Below, piece after piece: positions 3,056-60,956 of a DNA stretch of 64,000 nt. A program made the position numbers and the translations under genes. The DNA is from Kingdonia uniflora (Eukaryota > Streptophyta > Magnoliopsida > Ranunculales > Circaeasteraceae), in assembly GCA_014058105.1 (NCBI GenBank), contig JACGCM010002112.1:806001-870000 (forward strand), read 5' to 3'. Position 1 is the stretch's first letter, and each line of letters starts with the position of its first letter. The notes under the pieces are model-generated. The model worked only from the letters and a program-made list of their open reading frames with translations. It did no database searches and was not told the DNA's origin.

Positions 3056-4260
3056 CAATGGTGATGAGTTTGAGGGGGAATTTGATGATGACTTTGATGG
3101 GATGAGCTTAGAAATAAGGACACAGTTATTGAAAACTGTAGACCAGAGCGATTAACAGTTTTTCTGTTGTCGTGTACTATTTTTTAGCAGATATAAGTGT
3201 CTTACTGATGAAATAGATTGATTTTTCTACTCTGCCATCTTCTCGAATAAGGACAGAACTGATTGAATCTTCAGTTGTGGATAAGTACATTGTAAGAGAT
3301 TCTCCATCAATTGGGGTACTCATTATAAGAGGATGTTCCAAGTATCGTATAAGGTCTCGGAAAGCCATCTCACGGTCAGGAGTCCAAAGGACTTTCTTTT
3401 GTTGTTTTGTCAAAAGAGGAGTGAGGTTGCCACGAAGAAGGAGGTAAAGGAGTTTACCTCGATCAAATGACTTTGAGATGAATCTGTGAAGAGCAACAAT
3501 TTTGCCTATAAATTTTTGAACATCTTTTTTTGTTCGAGGAGATGGCATTGCCATGAGTGCTTTGATTTGTGCGGGATCAATTTTTATCCCACTTTTGCTG
3601 ACCAGATATTCTAGGAATTTATGAAATTTGACTTCGAATTGACATTTTTCTGGGTTGAGATTCATTTGGTACTTGCGAAGGATATCAAAAATGGTTTGGA
3701 GGTTGCTGGAGTGATCTTCTTGTTTCGAGCCTTTGCAGATCATATCATCGATGTAGACTTCCATAATTGTGTCGAGATGATCTTTAAACATTTTAGTTAC
3801 AAGTCTTTGGTAAGTAGCGCCTGCATTTTTTAAACCGTAAGGCATTGCCGTATAACAGTAGAGACCTCTGTCGGTGATGAAGGTTGTTTTTTTCTGATCT
3901 TCTTCGGCTAGTGGAACTTGGTTATAACCAGAGGCTGTATCCATCATAGAAAGAAGTTCGTATCCTGCGACTGAGTCGAGAAGTTATGGAATGAGTGGTA
4001 GCGGAAAACTGTCCTTAGGTGTGAGCTTATTGGGTTCTGTGAAGTCAACACAAACCCTAATTTTTCCATTTTTCTTTGGTACCACTACGATATTGGAAAC
4101 CCACTTCGGATATTTAGCTTCCCGAATAAATCTTACCCGAAGAAGTTTATCAATTTCTTTGTTTACTGCATCGCGGAGTCGGGGGGCTAGATTCCGTCAT
4201 TTTTGGATGATAGCTTTGCTGTCTAGAAGGAGGTTGAGTCGGTGACAAGCGATTGAGGGG
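3056..4260 (-). pseudogene. Reverse transcriptase with truncated RNase H (Tat element 1)
   Basis: RT begins near 4260 in a frameshifted part (VVVPKKNGKIRVCVDF is readable around 4080-4040). It continues in the ORF 3947-3177 with MPYGLKNAGATYQ and the catalytic YIDD motif, then the thumb/connection region. RNase H follows (FISKTL near 3195; then a stop; YTTTEKLL and KVIIKFPLKL readable to about 3056). Just after this the sequence jumps to the linker preceding integrase, so the end of RNase H and the entire second RNase H typical of Tat elements are deleted. Confidence 0.92.
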
Positions 4261-4489: not shown

Positions 4490-5027
4490 TGGTTGTGGTA
4501 TTCTAGCATATTTGTGAAACTGCTTGACTGCCTTTAATTTCATAAATTCCGTGATCTGTTGGAAAATGTAGCACTAGATGATAAATAGAAGGCACTGCTT
4601 TAATTGAATGTAACCAGCTTCATCCTAAAATCCCCAAATATTTAGACTCTGCATTGATGATGAGGAATTTGACGAATGTAGTTTCAGAACCTGCCTGAAC
4701 TGGCAGAGTGATTTATCCTGTGGCTAATTCTTTCGAACCATTGAAGCCCGTGATTGTTGTTGTCGAAGCTTTTACCGAATCTGCAAGGCCTAGGACTTTT
4801 ATTGCTCTTTTGAACAATACATTTGTGGCGCTCCCAGTATCGATGATAAGTGTATGTAAATAGTCCTGTCCGATTTTGAACATAATGGCAAGAAGGTCAT
4901 CATGAGGGTATTTTACGTGGTTTGTGTCACAGTCTTCGTAGGTGATTTGGTAAGGACGCCTCGATTTGCTTGTGCTGGATAGCAGTTTTGCTGATTTGGC
5001 CGAGGAGGTCATTTTATAACAAGACAT
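4490..5027 (-). pseudogene. Aspartic protease (Tat element 1)
   Basis: The ORF 5027-4713 carries the retropepsin active-site motif in IIDTGSATNVLF (Asp-Thr-Gly present) about 65 residues in, preceded by a short basic linker. Coding similarity continues out of frame towards 4490. Retropepsin processes the Gag-Pol polyprotein. It sits between the gag zinc finger and RT as expected for Ty3/gypsy. Stops after residue 104 mark the copy as broken. Confidence 0.85.
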
Positions 5028-7245: not shown

Positions 7246-7738
7246 GTTATGCTTGGTCAAATAGAGCTGTTGGGAGATTCGCAAATTTCGTCCTCTACCC
7301 CCGAAATAGGAAACTAGTTTTCTTTTTGTAAACTACCTGAATCTACTATAAATATAGGGAAAGAATGAGTTATTCTGATCTATAAATTTTACTATTCATT
7401 TATCCTTACTATCTTACCAAAACAACAAATTGTAATAACTAGCAACTTATTAGAATTTTCATCAAAACCCTCCTCGAGGTCGTAGTTTTTCTCAGCCTTT
7501 ACTAAGTTTTCACGTAAAATTTTATTTGTTTAAACTTATTATTACATAATCCTCACTATAAGTATTGGAGAAGATTATCCTCTCGGAAAACACTCCATTA
7601 CAATTGGCGCCGTCTAAGAGAATACCATACTTTTCTTTACCATTGTGATCTAAGATAGTCCGATGATAAACATGAATCTCCAAAGTGCCTCCAGTACGCT
7701 GAGGAACCACGAGATAGAAGAAAGAATTGGTCAATTTG
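7246..7738 (+). mobile_element. Inverted Tat LTR plus leader fragment
   Basis: Bases 7246-7602 are a plus-oriented LTR truncated at its 5' side. Bases 7603-7615 are the primer-binding site (ATTGGCGCCGTCT). The following 120 bp are the 5' leader/gag start. The whole block is the reverse complement of 11935-12420 in element 2, to which it is much closer than to element 1. It abuts the outer end of element 1's LTR on the left and the antisense-ORF tail of element 2 on the right. Confidence 0.8.
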
Positions 7739-9545: not shown

Positions 9546-9854
9546 TCCTAAAATATGAGCTGCGCAGATTCCTTCGTGAAGTTCTTTGATTTTGATTTAA
9601 ACTAATTTCTGAGAGATAAATTCGATAAGTGGTCTTCCTCTTGTATTGGAATATAAGATTTTATTATGAACTGTGAATCGAGGGTATTTCGCTAAGAGTG
9701 ATCGGGCCTCTTCTTTGTTACTTGGGAGGATGTTAGAATTAAGGTATGCATAAAATGGTCTTATCCAATCTTTAGTATCTTTATCTTCAGTAACATTAAT
9801 GTGCATCATATAGCTTATATCGAGACTGGAATGTTCGATGACCTTGGTGTCCAA
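9546..9854 (-). pseudogene. RNase H-integrase linker of Tat element 2
   Basis: The minus strand holds the linker (ORF 9854-9597, with DWIRPFYAYL, LLAKYPRFTVHNKILY and GRPLIEF), typical of the region just before the integrase zinc finger in Tat polyproteins. A stop at about 9597 separates it from the integrase. The same linker begins near 3040 in element 1, which allows the pol deletion there to be placed. Confidence 0.75.
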
Positions 9855-10390
9855 AGTTTTTTTTATTGTCTTCGAGCATTACACCAATATATGCAAACGC
9901 GTTAGTGTGGCGATTTTCAGCTCGAGGGAGGTAAGAGATTGTTGTTGTTGTTGTGATTTTTCTCATTTTCTCTTCGATCAGGGCTGCATAATCAATCATC
10001 TTTCCAGATGTTTTGAACGTTTTGTTGTAATGGTTAGCGACGAGCAAGGAGTCGACGTATACAGTTATTTCATCCACCCCAAGTGCTATAGCATGATCTA
10101 GTCCATGGAGGATAGCTTCATATTCTGTTTCCTTGTTAGTGGCAAAGAACTTGAGTTTAATAGCCTTCTCGATGCGATGATTGGATGGTGTAACGAGGAT
10201 GATGTTGATTCCTGATCCTCGCAGTCCAACATATCCGTCTATAAAGAGTTTCCATCCTGTACTTCGTGACCATGCGTCTGGTTCTGTAATTAAGTCATCA
10301 GTCAATACTTCTTCGAGTTCTTCCCAACTGGGGTTTTTGACTTGAAAATTTGCTAAGAAATCAGCTACTGCTTATCCTTGTACTTGATCT
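9796..10390 (-). pseudogene. Second, archaeal-type RNase H of Tat element 2
   Basis: The minus-strand ORF 10305-9796 shows an RNase HI fold: FIDGY (first Asp), ETEYEAILHGL (Glu), VYVDSLLVANHYN (Asp), then RHTNAFA where the fourth acidic residue is normally Asp and is Asn here. The preceding AVADFLANFQVKNPSWEEL block (10390-10306) is the usual lead-in and has one stop. Tat elements are known for carrying this extra RNase H. The domain is fused by deletion to the gag end at about 10375. Confidence 0.85.
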
Positions 10391-11904: not shown

Positions 11905-12053
11905 TACGCTGTGCAGATCGACTATTTCCGGTATTGGGTTGATCTCGTGGTTCCTCAGCGTACTAGAGGCATTTTAGAGATTTATGTTTGTCATCGGACT
12001 GTCTTTGATCACAGTGGTAAAGAAAAGTATGGTAGTCCTACAGACGACGTCAA

Positions 12054-12535
12054 TTATAATGGCGTGTTTTCTTGGAGGATAATCTTCGCCAATACTTATA
12101 GTGAGGATTATGTAATAATTAGTTTAAACAAATAAGATTTTACATAGAAACTCAATAAAGGCTGAGAAAAGCTGTGACCTCGAGGAAGGTTTTAATGAAA
12201 AATCCAATAAGTTGCTAGTTATTATAATTTGTTGTTTTGGTAAGATAGTAAGGATGAATAAATAGTAAAAGTTGCGGATCAGAATAACTCATTCTCTGCC
12301 TGTATTTATATTAGATACAGGCAGTTTACAAAAATAAAAATAGTTTCCTATTTCGGGGGTAGGGGCGAACTTCGTGGATCTCCCAACAACTCTATTTGAC
12401 CAAGCATAACGGCTACTTTTCGTAGATCGAGAACTATGGTTACAGACGCGACATCTTCTTGAATGATGGAATGTCTTCGACTAAGGTCCGTTTGCTTCTC
12501 TTTGTCTAATCTGGGAAGTATGCTACTATAAATTC
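12054..12535 (-). repeat. 5' LTR of Tat element 2
   Basis: About 480 bp beside a mutated primer-binding site (sense TTGACGTCGTCTGTAGG instead of TTGGCGCCGTC). Homologous to 6765-7245 and, in reverse complement, to 7246-7602. The outer end is placed where similarity to element 1's LTR stops (GCTACTATA). Confidence 0.72.
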
Positions 12536-16675: not shown

Positions 16676-17199
16676 AAAACAGTCCCAACAAATGACAAAT
16701 TAGAATCTTACTATGATGTCTTTCTAATTTTGGTTGTTTTAAAGCCGCATCAATTTCCATGAATTCATATGTTTTCTTCTTTTTGGGGAAACGCCTATTC
16801 CTGAACTCTATGACATGCTTAGGATCAACAAATGCAAAATTATTGTGAATATGAGAAACATGTAGGCCCCAAAATCAGACAAACATGAATGAGTTTCATC
16901 TAAATTATGGTCCCCCTAAATTTGAATTTCATATCACTGAGATGAAGATCAAATATTTCCACAACCAACTTCGACATCGCCGCTATTAGGTCAATCATTA
17001 GTAACGGTGCAAAGTAAGTGGTATGACGAGCACACTTCTCTTCCTCAGGCAGAGCTTTAAACATTTTATTCAGTTCCAAACTTATACATTGAGAGGTATA
17101 ATTTTTAGTATTGGTGACCTTCTTCTCTCTACCCTCTTGCATTTGGTTCTCTTCAACAAATTGCTCATTACTCACTTCTTTATCAGACTTCATCATTGT

Positions 17200-17966
17200 G
17201 AATCAAGTAACTAAAAGTAAAAGAAAGAAAGAAAAACCAGACATTAATCAAACACTTGGTAGGCAGTAATGAGACAACAACACGATTTGCCCAAAGTATA
17301 AGCACACTGAAATCACACACACAGGACTCGACGATTGTGAAAAAAATGGTTGTGGAGTTATTAAATGAAAAATAATGCCAGAATCAGGACGGTTGTTTCC
17401 GTCGAGATTAGAAGAAACTGTTTGACGAATCGGGACAGTTTTTGGCACCAAAAATCAGAGGAACTCATGTGAATTGCACGTGATAACCTAACCAGAAACA
17501 AATGACAAATATGCGTTACATATGGCTAATTTGTTTGAATGCGTGATAAATTCCCCTGAAACAAATGACAAGTAATATCTGAAATGGTGACAGAGTCTGC
17601 CTTACACGTCTCAAAATGGTAATGACGTGTACATTGAAGAATTAAATTTGGACACGTGGCGTAATATATTACTTTAAAATGATTTGAACATTTATTATTA
17701 TTTCGGAAGTAAAATTCGTACTTGTGGAGCCCACGACCTGTAAAAAAATATATGGTTAACTACTGTAATATTCAAACTCTAGTAGGGGAAAAATTAGAAT
17801 TTTCTCTTGCAAGTATCGATTTTGTAATTTATTGTTCTTTGGTCGATTTTCAAAACTTTGCATGTTGGAGTATTTAAAATTATAATTTACTTTGTAAGAA
17901 CTATAATATGATTGTGTTGTTTATTATTTTTGTTATATTAATTTCTTTTACTAAAATATATATATA
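17200..17966. other. Non-coding gap between mobile gene and Helitron A
   Basis: Upstream side of the DUF1985-like gene, with two last ACAAATGACAA motifs near 17500 and 17560, then AT-rich sequence. No ORF or RNA gene is recognised. A promoter would be expected here but no clear element is visible. Confidence 0.4.
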
Positions 17967-17977
17967 CGAGAAATGTG

Positions 17978-17995
17978 GCACGCGCTAGCGCGTGC
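17978..17995 (-). other. Helitron A 3' terminal hairpin
   Basis: Perfect 18-bp palindrome GCACGCGCTAGCGCGTGC in AT-rich surroundings, followed on the minus strand by CACATTT and CTCG|T. The same architecture occurs in plus orientation at 43359-43390. Confidence 0.75.
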
Positions 17996-18808
17996 GAATG
18001 CATTATTTGTAAGATTTAAGTTGGGTTTGAGTGTAATTTTTTGATATTAGTTTATCTTTTCTTTGCTTAGGAATACCATATTATGCCAGCATTTTTAACA
18101 AAAACTATATGTCGGATAATACTCGTCATTGGATATAGTCTTTGCAACTGAAATAATTTTTGTGTATTTGGTTTTGTTTCAGATTACCAATGAGAGTAGG
18201 CAAGTAGACATGAAGTACATTTAAGATATTATAAATGGCAAACTATGTACTACACAATGCATAAATTTGAGTAACAACACTACAGCTCAACCGCAAATGT
18301 TTATGAGTGATTTATACATATGCTAACCATTAGATTTATGTATGAGATGAAAGCTTAGCTAAATCAATGGGCAACAACTATCTAAATCATGCGATCACAA
18401 ACATTTCTAGTGTACAAAATAGAGCACATAATTGGGCAGAAAATGAACTTAAGAAAAATAAGCATCCCTCTGGCCATTACTGAAACATTTTGACATAACA
18501 ACCTACATTGTGATACTATTGATAGTTGGACTAATAATTAATTTTCTTTTGCGCTATCCTCCATATATATTCCAAGATTAATCTACATAGATAAACTTTG
18601 TTAGGAAGCTGAAAGGGCGTAACTCCATTGGATATCAATAAAACTTTAAATATAATAAGTACATAAAAACTAATAATGCAATATATTATCATCTAAGAAC
18701 AGTTTGAAGACACAAACCCATTGAATATGAGTTCTGATTATAAACTATACTTTTTGGCTCAAACAAGACCAATTTTATGCTCTAATTGTAAACTATAGTA
18801 TAATTCCA
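17996..18808. other. Helitron A 3' region, no gene recognised
   Basis: AT-rich sequence without long ORFs or recognisable domains. It lies between the 3' hairpin and the Cassandra-like LTR. Confidence 0.4.
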
Positions 18809-19094
18809 TGTTACCATAATACATACATAACGCCTGGGAGTCGAAAGAAAGGTCGATCCAGATCCTTGGTACAAAGGCAATTATCTATCATATACTATCA
18901 CCGAGTCCTTTTGAGCCCATTTTGTTGTGGGAGTTGAAAGAACTCCACGGTTAAGCGTGTTTGGGCGGGAACAATCCTGGGATGGGCAACCCACCGGGAA
19001 GCTGCCGCCAAATATAAACCGCATACTGCTAATGATCCGCAGTGGCTAAGTGGAGACAGTATCGGTGAGTATAGTATAGGGTGGATCATTACAA
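18809..19094 (+). mobile_element. Cassandra-like TRIM LTR with 5S rRNA-derived core
   Basis: Bases about 18898-19012 resemble plant 5S rRNA through AACTCCACGGTTAAGCGTG, TTGGGC, then TGGGATGGGCAACC and CCGGGAAG, which include the internal control region. Plant 5S normally has GGATGGGTGACC, so this is a diverged copy. 5S-like sequence inside an LTR defines Cassandra TRIMs. Candidate ends are TGTTACC at 18809 and CATTACA at 19094. I found no clear target duplication, so it may be a solo or truncated LTR. Confidence 0.65.
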
Positions 19095-19633
19095 TAAACA
19101 TAGATTTTTTACCAAATGAAATCAAGATTAACTGTCATTTCAAGGTATTAATATCCATTCCTAACGGAACCAAGTTATCCATGAATGAAAACACATAATA
19201 TGATAGTTTTTGCATGAATAAAAATAATTCCTAATTAAATTGGGGTCTGGGTTTATAATTGTAAGGCTCCTTACATCTACATGGGTTTATTCAAAGTCGA
19301 AGCTTTTGCCGGCTTGGCCATATCACTTTTACTTATAACCAAAAAATACCAGGTAATAATTTCCAGCAAGATGTTTCTTCACTTGCAAGTCCCAAATTGT
19401 TATAATCACGATCCTACAAAATTAATAATATTTCTAAATCAAACTGTGCAAGGATCAAAAAGATCAAACTATATATACTAGAATCACATTACAAAAGGAA
19501 GAATCTCCACTTCCTGAAGATGCATGGGGTACATATAAAAAATTGGCTCCGGAACACACCGGGCAGTGTACCATTATAATAGATAGAAACTCCAATTTAT
19601 GCTTTTACCCTCGAAAGAATGTAATAAACATAC
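19095..19633. other. Intergenic/intronic stretch in Helitron A
   Basis: No supported gene. The plus-strand ORF at 19281-19481 has no recognisable domain and overlaps intron-like sequence next to the alpha-mannosidase fragment. Confidence 0.35.
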
Positions 19634-19888
19634 CCTTTTAATAAAATCCTGCCCATTATAATCTGTATAGAACATTTTATTGGTCTTCATAGTAGTTGAA
19701 ATTAGTGTTGCAATTTCTTTCCCACGTCCATCATCGACTGGTATTGGTCCAATCTATAGTTGTAGATATCATCGATAAGCAAAATGTCAAAAAATAGTAT
19801 CAATGGATAGAGAGATCAATATAGAAGTTGTTATGCTTACGGCAAACTCAACTTCGGCATGCTCTTTCCCCTTGTAAACTCTTGTGAT
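19634..19888 (-). pseudogene. Alpha-mannosidase (GH38) fragment, two exons
   Basis: Exon 19888-19841 reads ITRVYKGKEHAEVEFA and exon 19753-19634 reads IGPIPVDDGRGKEIATLIS, then NKMFYTDYNGQDFIKR, each with AG acceptor and GT donor in place. This matches the C-terminal half of plant lysosomal/vacuolar alpha-mannosidases (K-E-H-A-E-V-E-F and FYTD.NG.DFIKR are conserved there). The rest of the gene is absent. It lies immediately downstream of the hydrolase fragment in the same direction, as expected for Helitron-style exon capture. Confidence 0.75.
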
Positions 19889-20518
19889 CTGAAAATATTC
19901 ACATAGATAAAGGACATTATCATGATGTAATGAGCCCTAAAGACAACAATTTCAATGCATCTAGTTAAAGGACCTGACGTATTCAAGGGCTGATCATTTG
20001 GTGTACTTTAGTTAGCACTGGCCCCTAAAACCAGTTAAAGAAACCTAAACAATAAAGCAATTATAATGAGAAGAACATCAGAACATAGTGGGCAGTAGCA
20101 AATAATTAGCTGGATCGAGCATTGTAGCCTGTAGGTGGTGGTTGGGCCATCTCTCAAGTGTTGTAGGTGGCTGATTGGGCCAATTAACAGTATCGTTGTT
20201 ATCGTAAGTCAGAGATCTCAAGTGTTGTAGAGGTCAGATTAAAAATGGGAATTCACTATAATCTAAGAGCCCTATATTATGTTTATTAGTATCGAACTTT
20301 CCTATATTTTTTAATTTTATTAATATGACTGCTTGAGGATTTACAAAGAAACTGCAGCAAAACAGAATACTTACAGAATTTACAAGCTTTGAAGCCATAA
20401 CTTGAGAGATTTTAGAGAAACAAGTGCATCCTCAGCACCTGCGACGACCAAAATTGGCAGGTCCTCAAGAGATTTAAGTAATATTTCTGCTTTCTGTGTC
20501 GAGAGAAATGTTTCAGAT

Positions 20519-23500
20519 CACTACAACAAAAACAATAAAATACTACAAAAGGAAACGAGGGATTTTTCTGTCGCTAGAAAGCGACTACTATTGCTAACAT
20601 TTTTGTACCTTGCCGTTTTTTATTTATTTTAGGGAATTAGAACTCTCGCACTTCCCATTCCTTATCCAATTTTCAACCCGCAATTTCAAAGGGAACATTG
20701 CCGATCATCTATAAGTCTTCTCTCCTCCTTGTTGTATTTCTGATTCCTTCAATCTTTGCATATGAGGTATTTGAATGGAGGCTTTGAAATTCATTGCTCT
20801 CTCGTTCAATCTTCAGGTGTAGGATCTAATTTATCTAATCTATGTGAAGGTTTTAGGGTTCCTGCAAGTTGGTTAATTTTTGTCTCATTTCTCCCCTTCA
20901 AATCAGCAATCATTGTTATGTATTTATGCATTCTCTTTTGATTTTGGGGTTAATGTTTGTTAATTTTTGTATTGGTGGTGCTACGAGGCAGTTTGAAATC
21001 GATTCAAAGGTATGATTTTCCTGCTAAATTTGTATTTCTTAGATTTAAACCCTAATTGGGTTTTTCCTCTTTTTTCACTAAATTTTATTATCGCTATAAT
21101 AGGTTTGAGAACAACAATTTGTCTGGAGCATTTGCTTTATCTTGGCTAACATGCCTCTGGTTGAATATGTAAATCAATTCAACTCCCAAATTTCAGCTCC
21201 AACATGTAAGTTGTACTTTTGACAATTTTTGCTAATTTGTGTTTCTTTGCTTATCATAGGTAGAAGAATAGACTAGTAGTTGATTCACATTTTTGCTTAA
21301 TATGTAACAACACTTGTGCCAAATGCTTTCCATTAATTTGACTAGTTGACTCCCTACAAACCTTAATACTTTGCTGAATTTCATTGAAATTAGTTTTATT
21401 TAACTTAATTCACATTTTATTTGTACGGTTCCTTATTTTTAGTTTTGTGCTTATCTCAGGTAATCCATTCATGGCCACTACATTGTGCCTGAATTGAGTC
21501 CTGGTCTGAAGTTTGCTTATTCTTCTCATAAGGCGGTGACTGAGTACAAGGAGGCTAAGGAGGTAATTGATATAATAACTTGTCAAAAATAAAGTATATA
21601 ATCTGGTAGTGTTATATCAGTATATTGCCAAAGTATCTTACGGAATTATGACATTATATAATCTGGCAGTGTTATATCAATATGATACTGTAAATGTCAC
21701 AATTAATATTAGTCGGCATACTTGCAGAGACAGCATATCAGTGATTTGTCCATCTATGCAATCTAGTCAAAACATACTAATTTTTATGAAAGAGATATAT
21801 CATCTAATTAATGTATGTTGATTTAGGAAGATCTAAGAATGTTTTTAAAGCATGGATATACAATGTACTTTATATGGCCTATCCAGTTCAGTTTGGACTT
21901 TTTTTATCTCTGCAAGTTATGGTGCCATAAGTATGCCGACTCTATGTTGTCTCGTTGCAACTTGGAATTGAGAGTCTCAGTTCTTGTTGGCTCTGTTTCC
22001 TACTTATTGTTGTCGAAGCCTAATAAGGGTGTTGAGAAATCATTTGCACTCCTTTAATTACTTGAAAAGATCCTTCTAGTGTACAAGTAAGTTTTCTATT
22101 AGCACATCAACTTTTGAGTTTTCTGTTAGTATATCAACTTTTGTGATTTATGTCATCTTTTTATATTTGAATCTCAGATTTTTCCATCTTATTTTTATAT
22201 CCTTGTCATTACAGAGAAGTTTTGGCTGAGTTGAAGGCTGTCGGAGCTACTTGGGTTCAAATTGATGAACCAACACTTGTGATGGATTTGGATTCTCATA
22301 AACTGAAAGCATTTACTGAAGCTTATGAACAGTTAGAGGATGCATTATCTGGGTTCAGTGTTATTATCGAGACCTATTTTGCCAATCTCCTTGCCGAGGC
22401 ATACAAGTAAGTTGAACTATATGGACTTGCTTTATTTATATCCTTAGATTTGACTACTAAATTTTGGCATTTCTGACTCCTTTGACTTCCTTCTAATTCT
22501 TCTTTAGGACGATCATCTCATTGAAGGGTGTCTTTGCAATTGGGTTGGATCTTGTCTGTGGAGACAAAACTCTTGAATTGGTTAAGAGTTTGGGATTTCC
22601 TTCTAAAAAGTATCTCTTTGTTGATGTTGTCAACGTCGTAATATTTGGGCCAATGATCTCGAAGCTTCTCTCACTGCCCTCAAAACTCTTGAAGGCATTG
22701 TTAGCAAAGGTACAATGTATAATAGTGGATCCACAATTAAGAAAGTAGGAGTTACACATTAGATATTTATGTTAGGCTATTGAAGTGGTTAAACTACATT
22801 GGGGAAAGTAAAAAACATGCCAAATGCTCTTTAATCCATCCACGATGTATGGAGCTATATATTAATGAAATTCGGCCTTTTATATTGTTAACTCACAATA
22901 TGTGATCCCTTGGTTGGTCATTACTAGGATACAAGTGCAGACATTTAATTGATTCTGTCTAAGTTAAATCTAATTTTACCATTATCCGACCATTTAAGTC
23001 CTAAACATAGTTTGCTTATGAATTACAGATAAACTTGTTGTTTCTACTTCATGCTCGCTTATATGTTAGACGAGGAGATTAAGTCTTGGCTAACTTTTGC
23101 TGCACAGAAAATTCTTGAGGTTAATGCCTTGGCCAAGGCATTGGCCGGTGAAAAGGATGAGGTACGGGCAGCATCGAAAACCATGTTTTTTTCTACCAAT
23201 AATTGTAATATGCCCTTTCTTATCTTTAATTTTATATATAGGCATTCTTTTCTGCCAACGCTGCATCCCAAGCTTCTAGAAAATCATCACCCAGGGTGAA
23301 TGATGAAGCACTTCAGAAAGCAGTAAGTAGCACTTTTGTTCATATATTTTGAATAGTGTAAAACTCTTTCTCTCTTACACACATTTATTTACTGATGCTA
23401 ATCTTTTGAACTATAGGCCTTTACTATAAGGGAATCAGAACATCATCGCGACACTCCAGTAACTGCTAGACTTGATGCACAGTAAAAGAACCTCAATCTC

Positions 23501-24617
23501 TCAATTCTTCCAACCACGACCATTGGGTCATTTCCTCAAACCCCTGATCTACGTAGGGTTAGACGGGAATACAAAGCAAACAAGTAAGTCCTTTGATTTA
23601 GCACAATAGGATTGAGGGAGTTGAAAGCTTTGTAAATATTTAATATCTGTTATGTATCAAAACACACTATTACTGAACCCTATATAACCTTCCAGGATCT
23701 CTGAAGAGGAGTACAGCAAAGCCATGAAAAAAGAGATCAACAAGGTCGTCAAGTTGCAGGAAGACCTTGACATTGATGTTCTTGTCCATAGAAAACCTTA
23801 GGTACGACACCTAACGAGAAAGATCCTGGCTGACCCAATTTATAATTTTATTTCATCAAATATGTTTAAAATTGATTACACTCTCTTAAAATTTTGCAGA
23901 GGAAAGACATGGTGGAGTACTTTGGAGAACAGCTGAAGGGGTTTGCCTTCTTTGCTAATGGATGGGTTCAGTCCTATGGTTCACGTTGTGTAAAGCCACC
24001 AATTATTTACGGTGCTGATATCCCAAGAGTGACTGATACACAAAGAGTTCAAAGGATTTCCAAGGACCAAACCTTATTTGAGAAAGGGCATGCAAAGAAC
24101 AAGTGCCCCATTTTTAATGAGAAACAAGTTGTTCGAAGATGAAGGGATAGAGAAAGTTCTCTTTATTAATGATTCCAAATTTTTATGTAGTCTTACAACA
24201 TTTTTTTTTGAATATTGATACCTTATATTTTTTGATTAATAATACTTTTATTTCTTTGCTATTGTTATTTTTTGTTCCTATATACCAAAAACTAAAAAGA
24301 AAAAATATTCTAGTAAATTGCAGTGGTTTTAGCTCTCGTTTTGTTTGCCCATGTAAGCGGGAAAAGAACGACATGTCCTAGTAGTCATATTTTACCAGTA
24401 AATGCTTTGTTTAACTAGGAAAAAAATGACCGCTTATTGTTGTCGCCAATTAGCGATGGGTTTGCGTAGTCGTATCGGCCTTGAAAAACGATGGCCAGTG
24501 GTGCTGTTAAAAAATATGGCTAACCAACGGCGACGGGTAAAGCGACGGCAACTGCCCTCATTTTTATGTAAAAGCGACGGACTACTGCCCTCGTTTCTTA
24601 GCCCTTTTGTTGTAGTG
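20519..24617. mobile_element. CACTA (En/Spm-type) element carrying a captured gene
   Basis: Terminal inverted repeats CACTACAACAAAA (20519-20531) and TTTTGTTGTAGTG (24605-24617) are perfect over 13 bp. A 3-bp target duplication GAT flanks them (20516-20518, 24618-24620). Subterminal regions hold repeated AAAGCGAC/GCGACGG words and a GAGGG/CCCTC pair, usual for CACTA transposase-binding regions. No transposase is visible; the interior is a methionine synthase pseudogene. Removing the element and one GAT rejoins the hydrolase exon. Confidence 0.93.
21460..24142 (+). pseudogene. Cobalamin-independent methionine synthase (MetE) pseudogene with introns
   Basis: Exons on the plus strand: 21460-21562 ([15 protein letters not shown]), about 21955-22086 (VLVGSVSYLLLSKPNKGVEK, one stop), 22215-22406 ([20 protein letters not shown]), 22508-22709 (SLKGVFAIGLDLVCG, frameshift near 22640), 23029-23161 ([17 protein letters not shown]; about a dozen residues deleted before it), 23242-23322 ([16 protein letters not shown]), 23417-23583 ([20 protein letters not shown], one stop), 23696-23801 ([10 protein letters not shown]), 23900-24142 ([32 protein letters not shown], then unrelated sequence). 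The enzyme methylates homocysteine using methyl-tetrahydrofolate. The start and the C-terminal zinc-site half are missing. Confidence 0.93.
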
Positions 24618-24676
24618 GATGACAATCTACCAATTTCATGGAGTGTTTCATCCCAACCTTCTACACATAGTGGGAC

Positions 24677-25357
24677 CTGATTGCATAAACAACCATTTTA
24701 ATAACCAAATGAAATGGGCACATTTATTAGCAATCACTAGACATAAAAGCTAGAGTATTTGTATGAAAATATAATTTATGAGTAATGCCAATACACATGA
24801 ATTTGCAACTTAACCATAAATATACATTGACGTTAGACAAAAAGACATACCATTAGATTTCAAGTTATACAGATTTCTATATAGCTTTCCAATTTTTTAA
24901 GCTCGTGACACAAGGTTCAGTCATACTAATTTTTTACTTACATCATGCATGTCTAGCGAGGATATCAATAAGGTATGAAGGTCAATATAGGCCTCATAGC
25001 ATGTTTAAAGGGGAAATGGCATGGTTCCTAGCATTACTCATTATTTGTTACCTATACAATGCGATTCTTTTATTCGTTACTTAATTATCCAACATTTTGT
25101 GAAAATCTTTATTTCATAGATACTGGTGCTGCTCCATATATGAAATAGAAAGAACCGGGTCAACTCTGCCGTCCAAACGGCCTCTACTATTTTCCTAAAT
25201 ACCAAAATGATTAAAAATACCTTAATAAACAGATTAACAAAAAATATGAACTTTTTGATTGATTTCAAATTCCAATCATTAGCAGCTAGATCGTGAAATT
25301 ATCAGAACAGGATAATATAATTTTCTTAAGCAATATATCATTCTTGGATAAACATAC
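24677..25357. other. Intron of the captured alpha/beta hydrolase gene
   Basis: AT-rich interval between the 25550-25358 exon (donor GT at 25357-25356) and the 24676 exon (acceptor AG at 24678-24677). A short minus-strand ORF (25268-25077) is not recognised as coding. Confidence 0.4.
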
Positions 25358-26979
25358 CTTGTAAAGGTTCAAAACCTTTGTCGTTAGTTTGGTAGCATCA
25401 TAACATGAACATCAATTAACCACTTGAGTAATCTCAATACGTAGCAAAGGCCATACTAAGTGCCTCTTCCCTAAAGAAGTACGCAATAGAATCCTAGCAA
25501 AGGCAAGAACAACTTCTCTTGACAAGCTTACACCAATCAGCACAATTCCCCTGATTTGTACCGGCAAAATGTAAATGATTAACCTATTTTGATTAAATCA
25601 TTGATTTGAAAGACAGAATCAGTTGTTATTCAACTGGACAACTAGAAAATAACTATGAGAAGAGAACCAAGAAAATATAATATTTTGTAAAGTATTAAGC
25701 AATAGAATGGGATCACCATGGGAGATACTCCAAGAAAAAGGACAACATCCAAATCTTACAAGTCGGAAGCGGAATTAGGATTACTTGCAACATATTATCA
25801 AGCAGGTGTACTCACATGCTTGGGATTTTCAAATTCCCAGGCTCCATCATCATGGCCAACAAGTACAACCGAAGAAAACCCCATCTCCAAACAAAAAGAT
25901 AGAAGAAGATCAACTTACATACAAAAGAAAATCACAATCTCACATCCGTCAAGAAGTCTAAAATGTAGCAAATTTATCAAATAATGTTTATATAGTAGGA
26001 AAAAGGACATGCAAAAATAATAAGCTCAAATTGATATTAGAAGCTATTTTTTACCACACTAAGTTTTAGATTGCGTAAATACAAAGAAATGGAGTAAATG
26101 CAATACCTAAGTTTCAAGCTTGTACAGATTAGGCAGTTGATTTTCTTCCCAATCATTTTTGAGTGGAGAAGTTAAACCCTAACCTGGTCGATCAAAAGCA
26201 ACAACCTCGCAGCCAACTTGTCGTGCAAACACTCCCATCACATGCCTCCATGAGAACACTCCCCCTCCAAACCCATGCACATAAACAATGCCAACATTTT
26301 AAGTTTCATCAATATTTTCCACTGAATTCTTAAGATCCTTGCTATTATCTTAATCATCTAAACTAAAAACAGGGATTTCCTCAGAGAAATAAGCTAGTGA
26401 ATTTGTAGAACCCTCTAACAATAGGGCGTACAGGGAGGAACTGTATAATTGATTACTAAAGCTTCTATGGAGATTGTGATTCTGTCTTTTAGATGAAACA
26501 GTCAGAGCTTGTCTTTCAAGTCTACGCCTTCTTGAGGTCATTCTAGGAGAAATGCAGCTTGAGTTCTGTTCGAGGAAATTAGTGGATGGTAGAGACCGAG
26601 ATGTAGGTGATTCAAAAAGGTTGTGCTTATACATTCATCAGTTTGTAATATGCTTACCAAAAATGGCATTGTTCAGCCGGAATCAATATATTTTTCTTTC
26701 CTAGGGTACATATATTAAGTAGAGATGGATGCATATAATATAGAGATTGAAGCAACCAAAGGAGGTACACAAAATTGCCATTAGTAAGTGTTGTATTTTT
26801 GGGGTTGGATACCAATTAGAGCTACAAATTCACATGTACTGCATAGTTGGTTCTCACCTTAAGAAGTCAGCTTCCAGCTTTGTCAATGTACCAATGAAGT
26901 TTTCCACAGCTTTTACGGAATACTGATCACCCACATTATTGGAGCTTTCTAGATACACTGTATAAATATGAAAAGACAA

Positions 26980-29528
26980 AAAGGAAAAAGAATTAAACGG
27001 TTGATTTGAAGAAAGGTCCTTTAATTATAATGCCTCTTCTCTGACGTGGACTTAACACTGGCATCTGTACTTGCCAAACTCTGGTGGTAATGACCCTTGC
27101 TAGAACCTGCGTACATCTGCGTCACAACTTGCAGCTCTTCCCACACTCAATAAGCTCGATGTCCGCGTCGAGAACAAAGCTGTGACATATGACTGACGGA
27201 CTACTGAAGCGTTTCTCCATCTCTACATCCCTACTCCAACTTGAGTACTTGGGGAACTTGGGAACAAGATACTGTCACTGCACCTGTCACCCTGAGCTCG
27301 TTGGCTTGCCATGTCCAACTGCTATCAAACTCGCAGAGACCAACCTTCATACTGTCGCAATCATCTTTAAATTTGAAGCGTAGCCATTCTCTGTCTCTTG
27401 AATTGGCTTCAACAAACGCAATCAACTCTAACCGGTTACTGAGATGTGGTCTTCTAAAGATACTCCATCAATACAAATGAAGAATGAGGCGCAGGTACTC
27501 TATCCCTACCGCCAACCGCCAAGTGATCAGGAATTGGGAAACTGACATCCAATTCCGCTCAGGATCTTTCATCCTAGAGCAATCTTCCATCTGAGATCAT
27601 GTCTGAGGTAACCCGTACAACTGACTGTAGCTCAACTCAGTTCTGCGACAACCACGTAACTTACTAACCTTCGGAAACGTGAGTCTTCACCCATCTGTGA
27701 GCTTAAATGACCCAGAACCATCTTGTGGAACAACATGGATCAACCCGGCTAGAGCACTCGAACGCCGACAAACCTGAAACTCACAGCGGAGCCAGAGAAC
27801 AAACATCACTCGGCAACTCGCCTTCTTTGAGTGATCAAAGCAGTGTTCTGTGTAACTAGGGACCAACTGCAGACAAGCGACAACCCATCTTGGAGGTCGC
27901 AGTTCATGTCGCGTAATAACGAGAAACTCTGCCCTCAACGTCTACCTGACGATATCACTGTGTGCAAACTCGGGACCCAAACCATGTCTTCATCTGTTAC
28001 TTCATGCCGCTTCATCTTTGGCTATTCACCTCCGGAATGTCTCTGTGTCCAACTCAGGACAATCACAACGAGTAACTCTCAAGATTCTTCAATCTTCGGT
28101 AGACCCTAAGGAATTCCAACCAAACCAAGCTTCGCAGCTTCCCTACGAAAGTACTCGGCAACTGACACTGACCATATCGATCTCTGCTGAGGGGCATCGT
28201 CCTTGATCACAACTGTTAATAAACTTCACAGTGGGTATGTGGACCGAATGCAATAACAACCTGCTAGATCGCTTTATTACAATTCTTCATAGAGCATCTG
28301 CGACACTGACCAACCTTCTAGAGACAACAAACGATATAGGCCATCACGTCCAACTCAAGTATCAATCCTTCTTTTATCGTCATTGTCCAAAGCACACTTA
28401 ACTTGAGCAATCTCGCGCTCAGATATGGAGCCTTTCTCTCGCATCTAATATCAACTGATATGTAGGCAACTCACTCTACAAGCGTTCACAACGGTGCTTG
28501 GATCATCTGTACGGAGCAACTACGGCTCTGAAGATCACAACTGACAAGTAGGTATCCCGCATTTTCAACTTGGGAACCATCACAAAGATCTGCTCTAACA
28601 AGATCTGATAACTCGGCCCAACTCTAGATCGATTCTGAGAGACGTAGGCACAATCCATCTACGCTCTACCAACTGAAGAGCTAAGCTTTGACAAGCTATT
28701 CTCGCTCTAATACCATCTGTCACGGCCCAGCCCAGGACCGCCTCTACAGTGCCCAGAGTATAGCGGAATAAGGCACCGTGCGACGTACACTGACGTGCGG
28801 TCGGCGTGTACCAGCCATCTTCACGGGCGCGGCGCGCCAGTGGCATACAACCCACGGATGCTAGAGCGACATCCAGATAATCCTGGATACTCGTGAGGGG
28901 TCATCGAATATGTATTCGGGATAGGCAACAACGCTTAAGGTTTCCTCAATAATCCCTACAGCGTAATCTCTCGCGACGCGCGCAAGGTACGGAAAGCACA
29001 CCTGTCCTGTAGCGGATCAGGGTAGCTCAATATGCCGGTTTCCATATAAGGGACTCATATCTCAAGGGGCGACGAGCCTGAACTATTTATATTATCCATC
29101 TGTAAGGGGCGGTGTGTCTCGGATAGCCCGCGAGGAATAGCGGCGCCATATGAAGCCCTCTTTGGAAAACTGGCCCGCATTACGAGGCAGTGTCCCCTAG
29201 CCTTCCCTAGGCCTAGGAGAACTCATAACTATCCCTTGTAGATAGTCCATGAGCCGGGGTCCTTGATGATCAAGCATTAAAGCTCTTTTAGTCATGGGGA
29301 TGATCGGACCAAGGTTCCTCCTTAATATAGCTACTAAGTAAATAGTCAATTTCCAAAAGGAAGCGTTAAAACATGAGACGAAGTGTACTGGCCCTTTTCG
29401 CCCCCTTAACCGAATCCGATTGCGATGAAACTTGGCGTACAACTATATTAAGATATAGAGAACATATACATTCGGACAGAACTCAAAACGCTCAGGTGGA
29501 TTTGGCTGGCGTTCGGTAGGTCGTCACA
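26980..29528 (-). mobile_element. Non-autonomous LTR element (LARD-like), copy A, left end unresolved
   Basis: The 5' LTR spans 29528-28718 on the minus strand (TGTGACG...CGTGACA). It is followed by a primer-binding site reading TGGTATTAGAGCG, close to the initiator-Met site TGGTATCAGAGC. The internal region 28717 to about 27570 is collinear with 44640-45730 of copy B but encodes no recognisable gag or pol. Beyond 27570 it continues with further GC-richer non-coding sequence to about 26.98 kb. I cannot find the second LTR. Open frames here (for example 28595-28855, 27687-27938) lack known domains. Confidence 0.7.
28718..29528 (-). repeat. LTR of LARD-like copy A
   Basis: 811 bp with TG..CA ends, homologous to 43891-44636 and 45731-46532. 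Shared words include AAGGGGGCGA, TTGGTCCRA, CCCCGGYTCATGG and GGATGTCGCTCTAGCATCCG. It contains the region of the likely promoter and poly(A) signals, which I cannot place exactly. Confidence 0.85.
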
Positions 29529-30342
29529 ATTACTCTTGTTGTCATGTGAACATGATATCATAAAATGCCGTCTACAATGCCAAACCAATAACACTAAACA
29601 AATTTATTGTACAACATCTTCATTGCTAAGTTATTGTAAATATCTTCTTAATAGCAAATTCATTGTAGAACTTCATAGCCATTGGAAGTAAGCAAAGGAA
29701 TGTGGCTCAACTTCAAAAGCATAGGAAACAAGCGAACTCCTAGTAGAATGCAAGCAAGTTTAAGTTTTTTCCTAACTACCCCTTATGCCTCGTGTTTCAA
29801 AAAGTAGCAAAAAGTTCAAACCCTTTAACACCGAAAATAGCAACTCGCCGTTCAATTTCAGGTGGTCACCAGTTTGGGTATTTACAATGGTCAGTGGGTA
29901 CTTCAAATAGGATGCCAAGGTGGCCACTGTAACTCTGACTTACCAAGGGAATTTTCTTACTGTACACGTTAACTTTAAGCGCTCTTCCATCTTACAAGCT
30001 AGCTTATGGTATGCAAGAATAGCCATTTCAATTTATACTCAGCACTGGATACTTAAGTTATGCGGTTCCAAAAGTTCTTACAATAAAAACTATGGTTCAT
30101 TGTAGCCTCCAAATACTGGGACCTATGAATCAAAGAATTGATTGCTGACAGAGAAGATAGTATCAGTAGATATATCAGCTAGTTTTTTTCTAAGAGATTC
30201 GAACGGATGGCGAATAAATCACTCATATTGACAATATTATCGGATATATCGGGTTTTTATGATATTTTCAAAATGTTCAATTAGCTGAATCAGCAGAAAT
30301 AGTAGCTGATAAAATAGTATAAGCTCTGTAGAATCAGTGTAC
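29529..30342. other. Spacer in Helitron A, no gene recognised
   Basis: AT-rich sequence between copy A's LTR and the coiled-coil gene fragment. A 61-codon plus-strand ORF (29920-30105) shows no known domain. Confidence 0.35.
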
Positions 30343-58741: not shown

Positions 58742-59602
58742 TTACTTGGGTACCAGGCCTTGGTGTACTCTGTGACCTCTAGGCTTGAGGTGAGATTTCT
58801 TGATCAGAACAAGGTCTCCCACTTGGAAAGGATCTGGTCGTCTCTTTTGATCTGCCCACTTCTTCATTCTGGCAGATGCTTTTTCCAAATAGGCCCGAGC
58901 AATATCAGTATTTCTCTGCCATTCCCATGCAAACAGGTAGGCTCTCGGAACACTTTCTTTGTACCCGGAGACCACCGTGAGTGGTGTGAGGAGATACTGT
59001 CCCAATAGTATCTCAGAGGGACTCTTATTGGTGGAGGAACTCTTTTGTAGATTAAAACAATACTGCGCTACATCCAGGAGTTCGGCCCAGTTCTTCTTGT
59101 TCGCCCTGACGAAGTGTCGGAGGTACTCTTCCAACATTGCATTGAAGCGTTTGGTCTGACCATCTGATTGCGGATGGTTACTGGTTGAGAAGTTGAGAGT
59201 AGATCTCAGTAATCTGAATACTTCCCTCCAAAACTTCCCAGTAAATCTCGGATCTTTATCGCTAATAATGTCCTGTGGCATGCCCCAGTACCTAACAATG
59301 TGCTTCACAAAGAGATGTGCCATTTTATCTGTCGTACAAACAATCGGGGATGGAATGAACGTCGTATACTTCGAGAATCTATCAATGATCACGAGGATGA
59401 AACCATATCCTTTAGTCTTAGGTAACCCTGAGACAAAGTCTAGAAAGACGCTTTCCCAAGGTCGTGTTGGTACAGGAAGTGGTTCAAGCAGTCCCAGCGG
59501 CAAGTCCCGATCTACTTTGTCTTGTTGGCAAATGTGACAAGTCCGCGTATAATCCATCACATCGTTTTGATCATTGGACCAATAGTAACCCATGTGCAAC
59601 AA
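58742..59602 (-). pseudogene. Integrase (chromovirus)
   Basis: 286 open codons: zinc-finger end (CHICQQDKVDRDLP), first catalytic Asp in SVFLDFVSGLP, second in IISDKDPRFTGKFW, and NHPQSDGQTKRFNAMLEEYL where the third catalytic Glu (usually QTERxN) is Lys. A GPY/F-like C-terminal region follows (DPFQVGDLVLIKKSHL). The N-terminal His-His part of the zinc finger continues upstream near 59602-59700 in another frame. Confidence 0.95.
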
Positions 59603-59760
59603 GGATAGTATTCTCCGCCAACCTGGATGGCCTGCTCAAAGAGTATCATGGCACTCTATCATCTCCCGTCTTAGTCCTGCGAACCGAGGAACATAAATCC
59701 CCTGTCCCTTCGTATATAAAAGACCATCTTCTACCCAAAACCGCTTTATCTTCCCCTGTT

Positions 59761-60956
59761 TCACAAGCTAATGATGGCTTGGGTCTGAAGATCCACTGCC
59801 AACCCTTCGCGGATCCTATCTTGAAAAGTATTGACAACATGAGAGTGAGACTGTTTAGCAGCTATAGAGACGGCCGCAAGGTCAGCTCTACGACTCAACG
59901 CATCCGGCACATTGTTCATCCTCCCTGGCTTGTTTTCGAGCTCTAAATCAAACTCTGCTAGAAACTCTTGCCAACGAGCCTGTATTGAGGTTAACTTCTT
60001 CTGGGTAAGAAAATGGCTTGCCGCACTGTTATCGGTCTTCACCAGAACCTTCATTCCCAACAGATAGTGTCGCCATACTCGCAGATAATGTACAATAGCT
60101 AGGAGTTCCTTCTGTTGGGCTGAATGCCTCCTCCCTGTGTCATTCAGCTTCCTGCTCTCGTATGCCACCGGATGTCCCTCTTGTAACAATACTCCACCGA
60201 TAGAAAAATTAGACGCATCGGTATGTACCTCAAACGGCTTGGTAATATCTGGCAAGGCGAAGACTGGATTACTAATTACCGCATGCTTCAGATCGTCAAA
60301 GGCTATTTGACATCTCTCGGACCAAGACCAAGATAAGTCCTTCTTGAGAAGATCTGTAAGGGGCGCCGCGCACTTCGAATATCCTTCGATGAACTTACGG
60401 TAGTAGTTCACGAGGCCAAGAAAGGAACAAACTTTTGCAACCTCTGTAGGAGGTTTCCACTTCTCAATAGCGCGGACATTCCCCATATCCATACGGATCT
60501 GTCCTCTGCCAATACTGTGTTCAAGAAACATAACTTGTTCCTGGGCAAACGAGCATTTCTCCAAATTAACATAGAGCTGGTTCTGCAGCAGGACTTGGAA
60601 TACCAGGCGAAGATGCTCAAGATGTTCTTCCATAGTGTGGTCGTATATAACAATATTATCCAGATATACCACCACAAACTTGTCGATATATTTCCGAAAG
60701 AGCTCATTCATAAGAGTACAGAAAGTTGCAGGAGCGTTGGTCAGGCCGAATGGCATGACAAGAAATTCATATGCCCCATATCGAGTGGAACAAGTCGTCT
60801 TCTGTCGACAATAATCCTGACCTGATAGTAACCCGATCTCAAATCAAGTTTAGAGAAGTACTTCGCAGATGTAAGCTGGTCAAATAAGTCGACAATGAGC
60901 GGTATTGGATACCTGTTCTTCACCATTACCTTGTTCAGGCTTGATAGTCGATACAT
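59761..60956 (-). pseudogene. Reverse transcriptase and RNase H (chromovirus)
   Basis: 60956-60741 encodes the RT start ([31 protein letters not shown]; first catalytic Asp present). A frameshift leads into 60756-59761: [12 protein letters not shown], the polymerase box VVYLDNIVIY (the family has YLDD, so the second catalytic Asp is Asn), FLGLVNYYRKFIEGYS, then RNase H with HTDASNFSIGGVL, QQKELLAIVHYLRVWRHYL and NNVPDALSRR. Length fits a full RT-RNase H. The YLDN change should abolish polymerase activity. Confidence 0.95.

Follow-up and report, generated by a model that had tools for sequence, protein, structure and literature searches.

Results

Structure of the element

Positions 20519–24617 of the window, by which we mean the whole 64,000-nt stretch of Kingdonia uniflora DNA analysed here, are occupied by a non-autonomous CACTA element of 4,099 bp that encloses part of a methionine synthase (MetE) gene and is inserted in an exon of an alpha/beta-hydrolase pseudogene. 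The element, to which as a whole no strand was assigned, was delimited by its ends, its target-site duplication and its subterminal sites. It starts with the 13-bp terminal inverted repeat CACTACAACAAAA (20519–20531, plus strand) and finishes with the exact complement of that repeat (24605–24617, minus strand). The sequence GAT is present on both sides, at 20516–20518 and at 24618–24620.

Elements of the CACTA (En/Spm) superfamily have inverted ends of ~13 bp that begin with CACTA, a 3-bp target-site duplication, subterminal repeats of 10–20 bp and a TnpD-type transposase. The element in the window has the exact 13-bp inverted ends from CACTA and the 3-bp duplication (GAT/GAT, with a gapless join of the empty site). 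The motif GCGAC/GTCGC occurs seven times in the element, and six of these sites fall within the outer 250 bp of the ends, two on the left (20570 and 20581, spanning 20570–20585) and four on the right (24442, 24530, 24542 and 24574, spanning 24442–24578), with one in the interior. The remaining 59.9 kb of the window contains 34 such motifs, which makes the ends ~22-fold enriched, although this is a short motif at only six sites, whereas the superfamily is defined by units of 10–20 bp. All three occurrences of AAAGCGAC in the window lie inside the element ends.

The chance occurrence of such termini was estimated from 200 Markov-1 simulations of the window, in which we counted inverted pairs of the CACTA type that matched exactly over 13 bp and lay no more than 20 kb apart. 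The 200 simulations together yielded six pairs, and a 3-bp duplication accompanied one of these. Two pairs are present in the real window, where the one with a 3-bp duplication is the element at 20519–24617. The other pair (7554/12103) was rejected as a second element because it lies inside a long inverted repeat and has no target duplication. This repeat (424 nt, 88%, 7292–7715 versus 11942–12365) is apparently retroelement end sequence in head-to-head arrangement. Pieces of LTR retroelements (integrase, reverse transcriptase and RNase H domains), which we take to be of the Ty3/gypsy type, are found at 1916–2428, 3177–3983, 9796–10371, 58742–59635 and 59761–60843 (–).

A Pfam search of all six frames of the non-MetE stretches of the element (20560–21475 and 24029–24617) at an E-value of 0.1 returned no family, and hence no transposase is recognisable in it. 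An earlier note on this DNA had placed a CACTA element without transposase at these same coordinates on the strength of perfect 13-bp termini, a GAT target duplication and subterminal GCGAC repeats, and this description held throughout. CpG depletion was considered as a methylation signature, but the contrast between the element (0.50) and the rest of the window (0.63) was too weak to be of use.

The captured methionine synthase piece and its parent

Aligned to the K. uniflora MetE model P0123 (GIB67_033028, 826 aa, uninterrupted), the interior of the element contains nine MetE exon pieces in order on the plus strand, which together span 21475–24013 and correspond to P0123 residues 178–591. 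The first piece (21475–21562) holds the left edge of MetE similarity; as read in the window against the P0123 protein, this left breakpoint seems to fall within an exon. Exon 2 (21961–22086) has a 2-nt deletion and one stop, and the acceptor upstream of it is lost (AA). Exon 3 (22215–22406) is followed by exon 4 (22508–22709), which has one frameshift, and by exon 5 (23029–23161), with an internal deletion of ~11 codons (parent residues about 393–403). Exon 6 (23242–23322), exon 7 with one stop (23417–23583) and exon 8 with a stop at its end (23696–23801) precede the exon 9 piece (23900–24013), where clear MetE similarity stops. In all, the window copy is damaged by three in-frame stops, the 2-nt deletion in exon 2, the frameshift in exon 4 and the deletion in exon 5.

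The eight introns between these pieces measure 80–398 bp, and seven of them are GT-AG while the first ends in AA. The nine exons of the earlier note are therefore present, but its good splice sites apply to seven introns and not to the first, whose acceptor is gone. P0123 is known as an uninterrupted protein, from which the eight introns of the element are inferred to be those of the parent. With eight introns kept, seven of them GT-AG, and nothing found in its favour, we regard uptake of a retroposed MetE copy into the element as having negligible probability; the earlier note had also excluded retroposition from the retained introns.

The captured span amounts to 414 of the 826 parent residues, about half, and lacks the N-terminal portion of the protein and the greater part of its C-terminal domain. 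In P0123 the Pfam domains Meth_synt_1 and Meth_synt_2 lie at residues 63–376 and 493–816, so the captured piece cuts both and is without most of the catalytic one. The description of the cargo as "nearly a whole" gene was thus too generous for a broken copy of half the protein. With half of the protein missing and a disrupted reading frame, it is very unlikely that an enzyme could be made from it.

The parent gene was identified as P0123. The record is labelled "partial", yet it is gap-free across MetE, and an N-terminal extension is present. The MetE sequence in the window matches it at 357 of 394 residues (90.6%), rising to 269 of 287 (93.7%) in clean exon interiors. In trees that included 16 further hand-picked proteins, the window sequence, the other Kingdonia models described below and P0123 fell within a group of MetE proteins of 804–817 aa (which also took in one 770-aa Papaver model), separate from the 765–766-aa type (to which a 666-aa Aquilegia model also belongs). 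The tree rules out cytosolic MetE as the parent. The longer group, parent included, is presumably plastidial (MS3-type), an assignment backed here by length and the N-terminal extension.

The insertion site

On the minus strand, the sequences flanking the element are the two halves of a single hydrolase exon, the downstream half at 20375–20518 and the upstream half at 24618–24679, as determined from the empty-site join and alignment to P0222, a 655-aa K. uniflora hydrolase model (GIB67_043130). When the element and one GAT are removed, the minus-strand flanks read on in frame through the exon (...VEGWDETLHEIGRLSSETFLSTQKAEILLKSLEDLPILVVAGAEDALVSLKS). The joined flanks align to P0222 residues 544–608 without a gap across the insertion point (84.6% identical, E = 4e-34). 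Since a single in-frame hydrolase exon results from the join, MetE was absent from this site before the element arrived. The earlier note had pointed to a MetE locus present here before the CACTA ends as the finding that would overturn its reading, and the continuous exon across the empty site contradicts that scenario.

Further exons of the same hydrolase copy, aligned to P0222 residues 258 to about 545, lie at 25295–26631 on the minus strand; at its low end the alignment enters an intron. The hydrolase pieces are 83% identical to P0222 and 68% identical to the next species. The copy covers P0222 residues 258–611 only; with three stops in the first exon found, another further on, and a window sequence that goes out of frame after SLKS, we call it decayed. 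A tblastn search of the window for the ends of the P0222 gene found neither, so the hydrolase copy may itself be a moved fragment. A search of 17000–30000 for inverted pairs of ≥18 nt, a length at which shorter ends would escape, gave 13, none of which convincingly marked a transposon enclosing it.

Other copies in Kingdonia

The same MetE piece was found in at least eight other, truncated Kingdonia protein models (P0001, P0002, P0004, P0066, P0105, P0124, P0129 and P0150), which lie on contigs of eight different lengths. This count comes from two protein searches, with 120 of 7,960 matches listed in the first and 120 of 7,998 in the second, for which P0002 was the query. As the copies are known as gene models, the sample is biased to less broken copies and contains some translated intron sequence. 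In the first search the Kingdonia models were 79–88% identical, compared to ≤72% for every other listed match. Among the listed matches of that search, a Cannabis sativa protein (P0003, 68%) ranked third by score, not by identity; two further Cannabis proteins (P0121 and P0122, 65%) ranked first and third by score among those of the P0002 search, and MetE similarity occurs in two stretches of P0121, which may be a further case of a rearranged MetE.

Similarity between the element and the models covers window positions 20960–24139 only, and it extends past MetE on both sides. On the left, a non-MetE stretch without Pfam match (20960–21169, plus strand) aligns to P0002, P0105, P0124 and P0129; on the right, a second non-MetE stretch (24014–24142, plus strand) is common to P0002, P0066, P0105, P0129 and P0150, up to 24067–24139 depending on the model. 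The borders are thus common to the window and four of the eight models on the left, and five of the eight on the right. Translated sequence from intron 1 of the element is present in P0150 and, briefly, in P0001. The shifted reading of exon 4 recurs in P0129, while P0001, P0002, P0004, P0066, P0124 and P0150 have GVVDG.NIW there. A short stretch elsewhere in the window (4611–4832, minus strand) matches N-terminal residues 99–167 of P0002, perhaps retroelement sequence that gene prediction fused to the MetE cargo.

The window copy differs from the parent at 37 residues, and ten of these differences occur in at least 75% of the models with data (at least four models). At nine of the ten, the parent and most outgroups have the same residue; T211R, which is among the ten, may stem from the 2-nt deletion in exon 2. 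The window sequence and the eight models form one clade with UFBoot 100 when all 414 columns are kept, among them stretches in which models have translated intron, and 99 with 288 clean exon-interior positions cut by hand. This clade is sister to P0123 (UFBoot 100). Branching within it mostly received weak support and was rather star-like in the clean-column tree. Taken together, the common derived changes, the partly common non-MetE borders and the single clade sister to the parent show, as far as protein models can be read, one capture of the MetE piece followed by its multiplication.

These observations bear on two other accounts of how MetE and the CACTA ends came together. In one, the site already held a MetE pseudogene, and CACTA ends came to lie around it afterwards, through coincidence or through two independent CACTA insertions. 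MetE-like and CACTA-like sequences are indeed both at the site, and insertions of Pack-TYPE elements close to one another can occur according to the accessible part of PMC8903248, but with exactly one GAT removed the flanks form a single in-frame hydrolase exon, and the same MetE piece with its visible borders recurs in the eight other models, which leaves this account extremely improbable. In the other, the MetE piece was spread by a different agent, such as a Helitron or a segmental duplication, and only the copy in the window has CACTA ends. What leaves room for this account is that the other copies are seen as protein models, which match the element only within 20960–24139; however, the non-MetE borders that they have in common with the window reach to ~440–480 bp from both CACTA ends. 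The repeated unit therefore extends beyond MetE while staying within the bounds of the element, and we consider spread by another agent highly improbable.

Discussion

The element at 20519–24617 is a Pack-CACTA, a kind already known: it has no recognisable transposase, host coding DNA lies between its ends, and the captured DNA is duplicated elsewhere, as seen in protein models. We hold it to be very probable that this K. uniflora element carries a genomic piece of a plastid-type MetE gene that was captured once, was moved in trans and has decayed as a non-coding passenger. Capture may have begun when two CACTA copies landed near each other at the MetE locus, after which the neighbouring copies and the MetE DNA between them would have been mobilised as one element; joint mobilisation of two neighbouring insertions is the model proposed for Pack-CACTA elements (PMC8903248; review PMC13317346, each in part). 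With no recognisable transposase of its own, the element would have been moved by proteins of an autonomous relative, and its MetE part would have decayed as a non-coding passenger.

A function for the captured MetE can be imagined: it might give a chimeric peptide, or else a regulatory RNA or small RNAs through which the plastid-type MetE gene is adjusted. The earlier note had raised the possibility that sense MetE transcripts interfere with the parent gene. The GT-AG borders kept in seven of eight introns would suit such a role, and gene pieces in the soybean element Tgm-Express1 are spliced into transcripts (PMC1947982, accessible part). Against this stand the stops, frameshifts and deletion, of which some recur in other models, the missing half of the protein, and the fact that the "hypothetical protein" models are predictions; we judge a function of any of these kinds very unlikely. 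More specifically, MetE exons and introns of a Kingdonia-specific, burst-amplified Pack-CACTA family might give rise to chimeric transcripts or small RNAs by which the intact plastid-type methionine synthase is regulated, a proposal that strikes us as a long shot.

As a decayed passenger, the MetE piece nevertheless has consequences for annotation. Among the matches listed, six of the eight truncated Kingdonia entries bear a methionine-synthase name in UniRef, and our comparison of the models suggests that the eight entries are probably transposon cargo and not MetE gene copies to be counted. Transduplication is cleanly illustrated by this locus in an early-diverging eudicot, with the parent identified, the empty site shown, and a single capture and multiplication read from protein models. 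The Kingdonia genome is ~1 Gb and the species was long taken for a long-lived asexual, while a population study infers cryptic sexuality (PMC9866071, accessible part); a multi-copy element in this plant is mildly interesting. In the open-access literature we found no paper that joins CACTA, methionine synthase and capture, and no study of Kingdonia CACTA elements among the matches listed.

The earlier note had called the capture of nearly a whole housekeeping gene by a CACTA element without transposase unusual, a view that the literature does not support, since capture of host genes by CACTA elements is documented already in the accessible parts of PMC8903248, PMC1947982, PMC8195511 and PMC8978399, and the comparisons that follow are likewise with those parts. 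In the Tpn1 family of Ipomoea nil (PMC8195511), CACTA ends also enclose a captured host gene, common ends there being combined with varied host genes. Chenopodium CACTA elements (PMC8978399) likewise contain host gene fragments; unlike the piece in Kingdonia, these are short fragments, from 80 to about 200 bp in length, located upstream of a transposase-associated domain. The likeness to soybean Tgm-Express1 (PMC1947982) is closer, as both are CACTA elements of a few kb with host exons and introns inserted in a gene, although Tgm-Express1 holds five captured genes and lies in an intron, whereas the Kingdonia element holds one recognisable gene and lies in an exon of a pseudogene. Soybean Tgmt* (PMC2613891) resembles it in the asymmetry of the subterminal sites (two left and four right in Kingdonia) as well as in its 13-bp ends and 3-bp duplication, but the motif defined in Kingdonia is the 5-bp GCGAC and not a unit of 10–20 bp. 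A 3-nt duplication is reported for soybean CACTA (PMC2613891) and, as ACC, for lettuce, and 5-nt duplications are reported for rice and maize elements (PMC8903248), from which the 3 nt in Kingdonia differ.

Pack-CACTA, or Pack-TYPE, elements of Arabidopsis, rice and maize are the nearest relatives in kind. They were reportedly described by Catoni and colleagues in 2019. Like these, as characterised in PMC8903248, the Kingdonia element is non-autonomous, has CACTA ends around host coding DNA, and has had its captured piece multiplied. Most rice and maize Pack-CACTA elements are of low copy number in that account, compared to at least nine copies of the Kingdonia MetE piece, counting the window copy and the eight protein models, and the Kingdonia element is further set apart from them in that it carries one long stretch of DNA, with eight introns, from a single gene of known identity.
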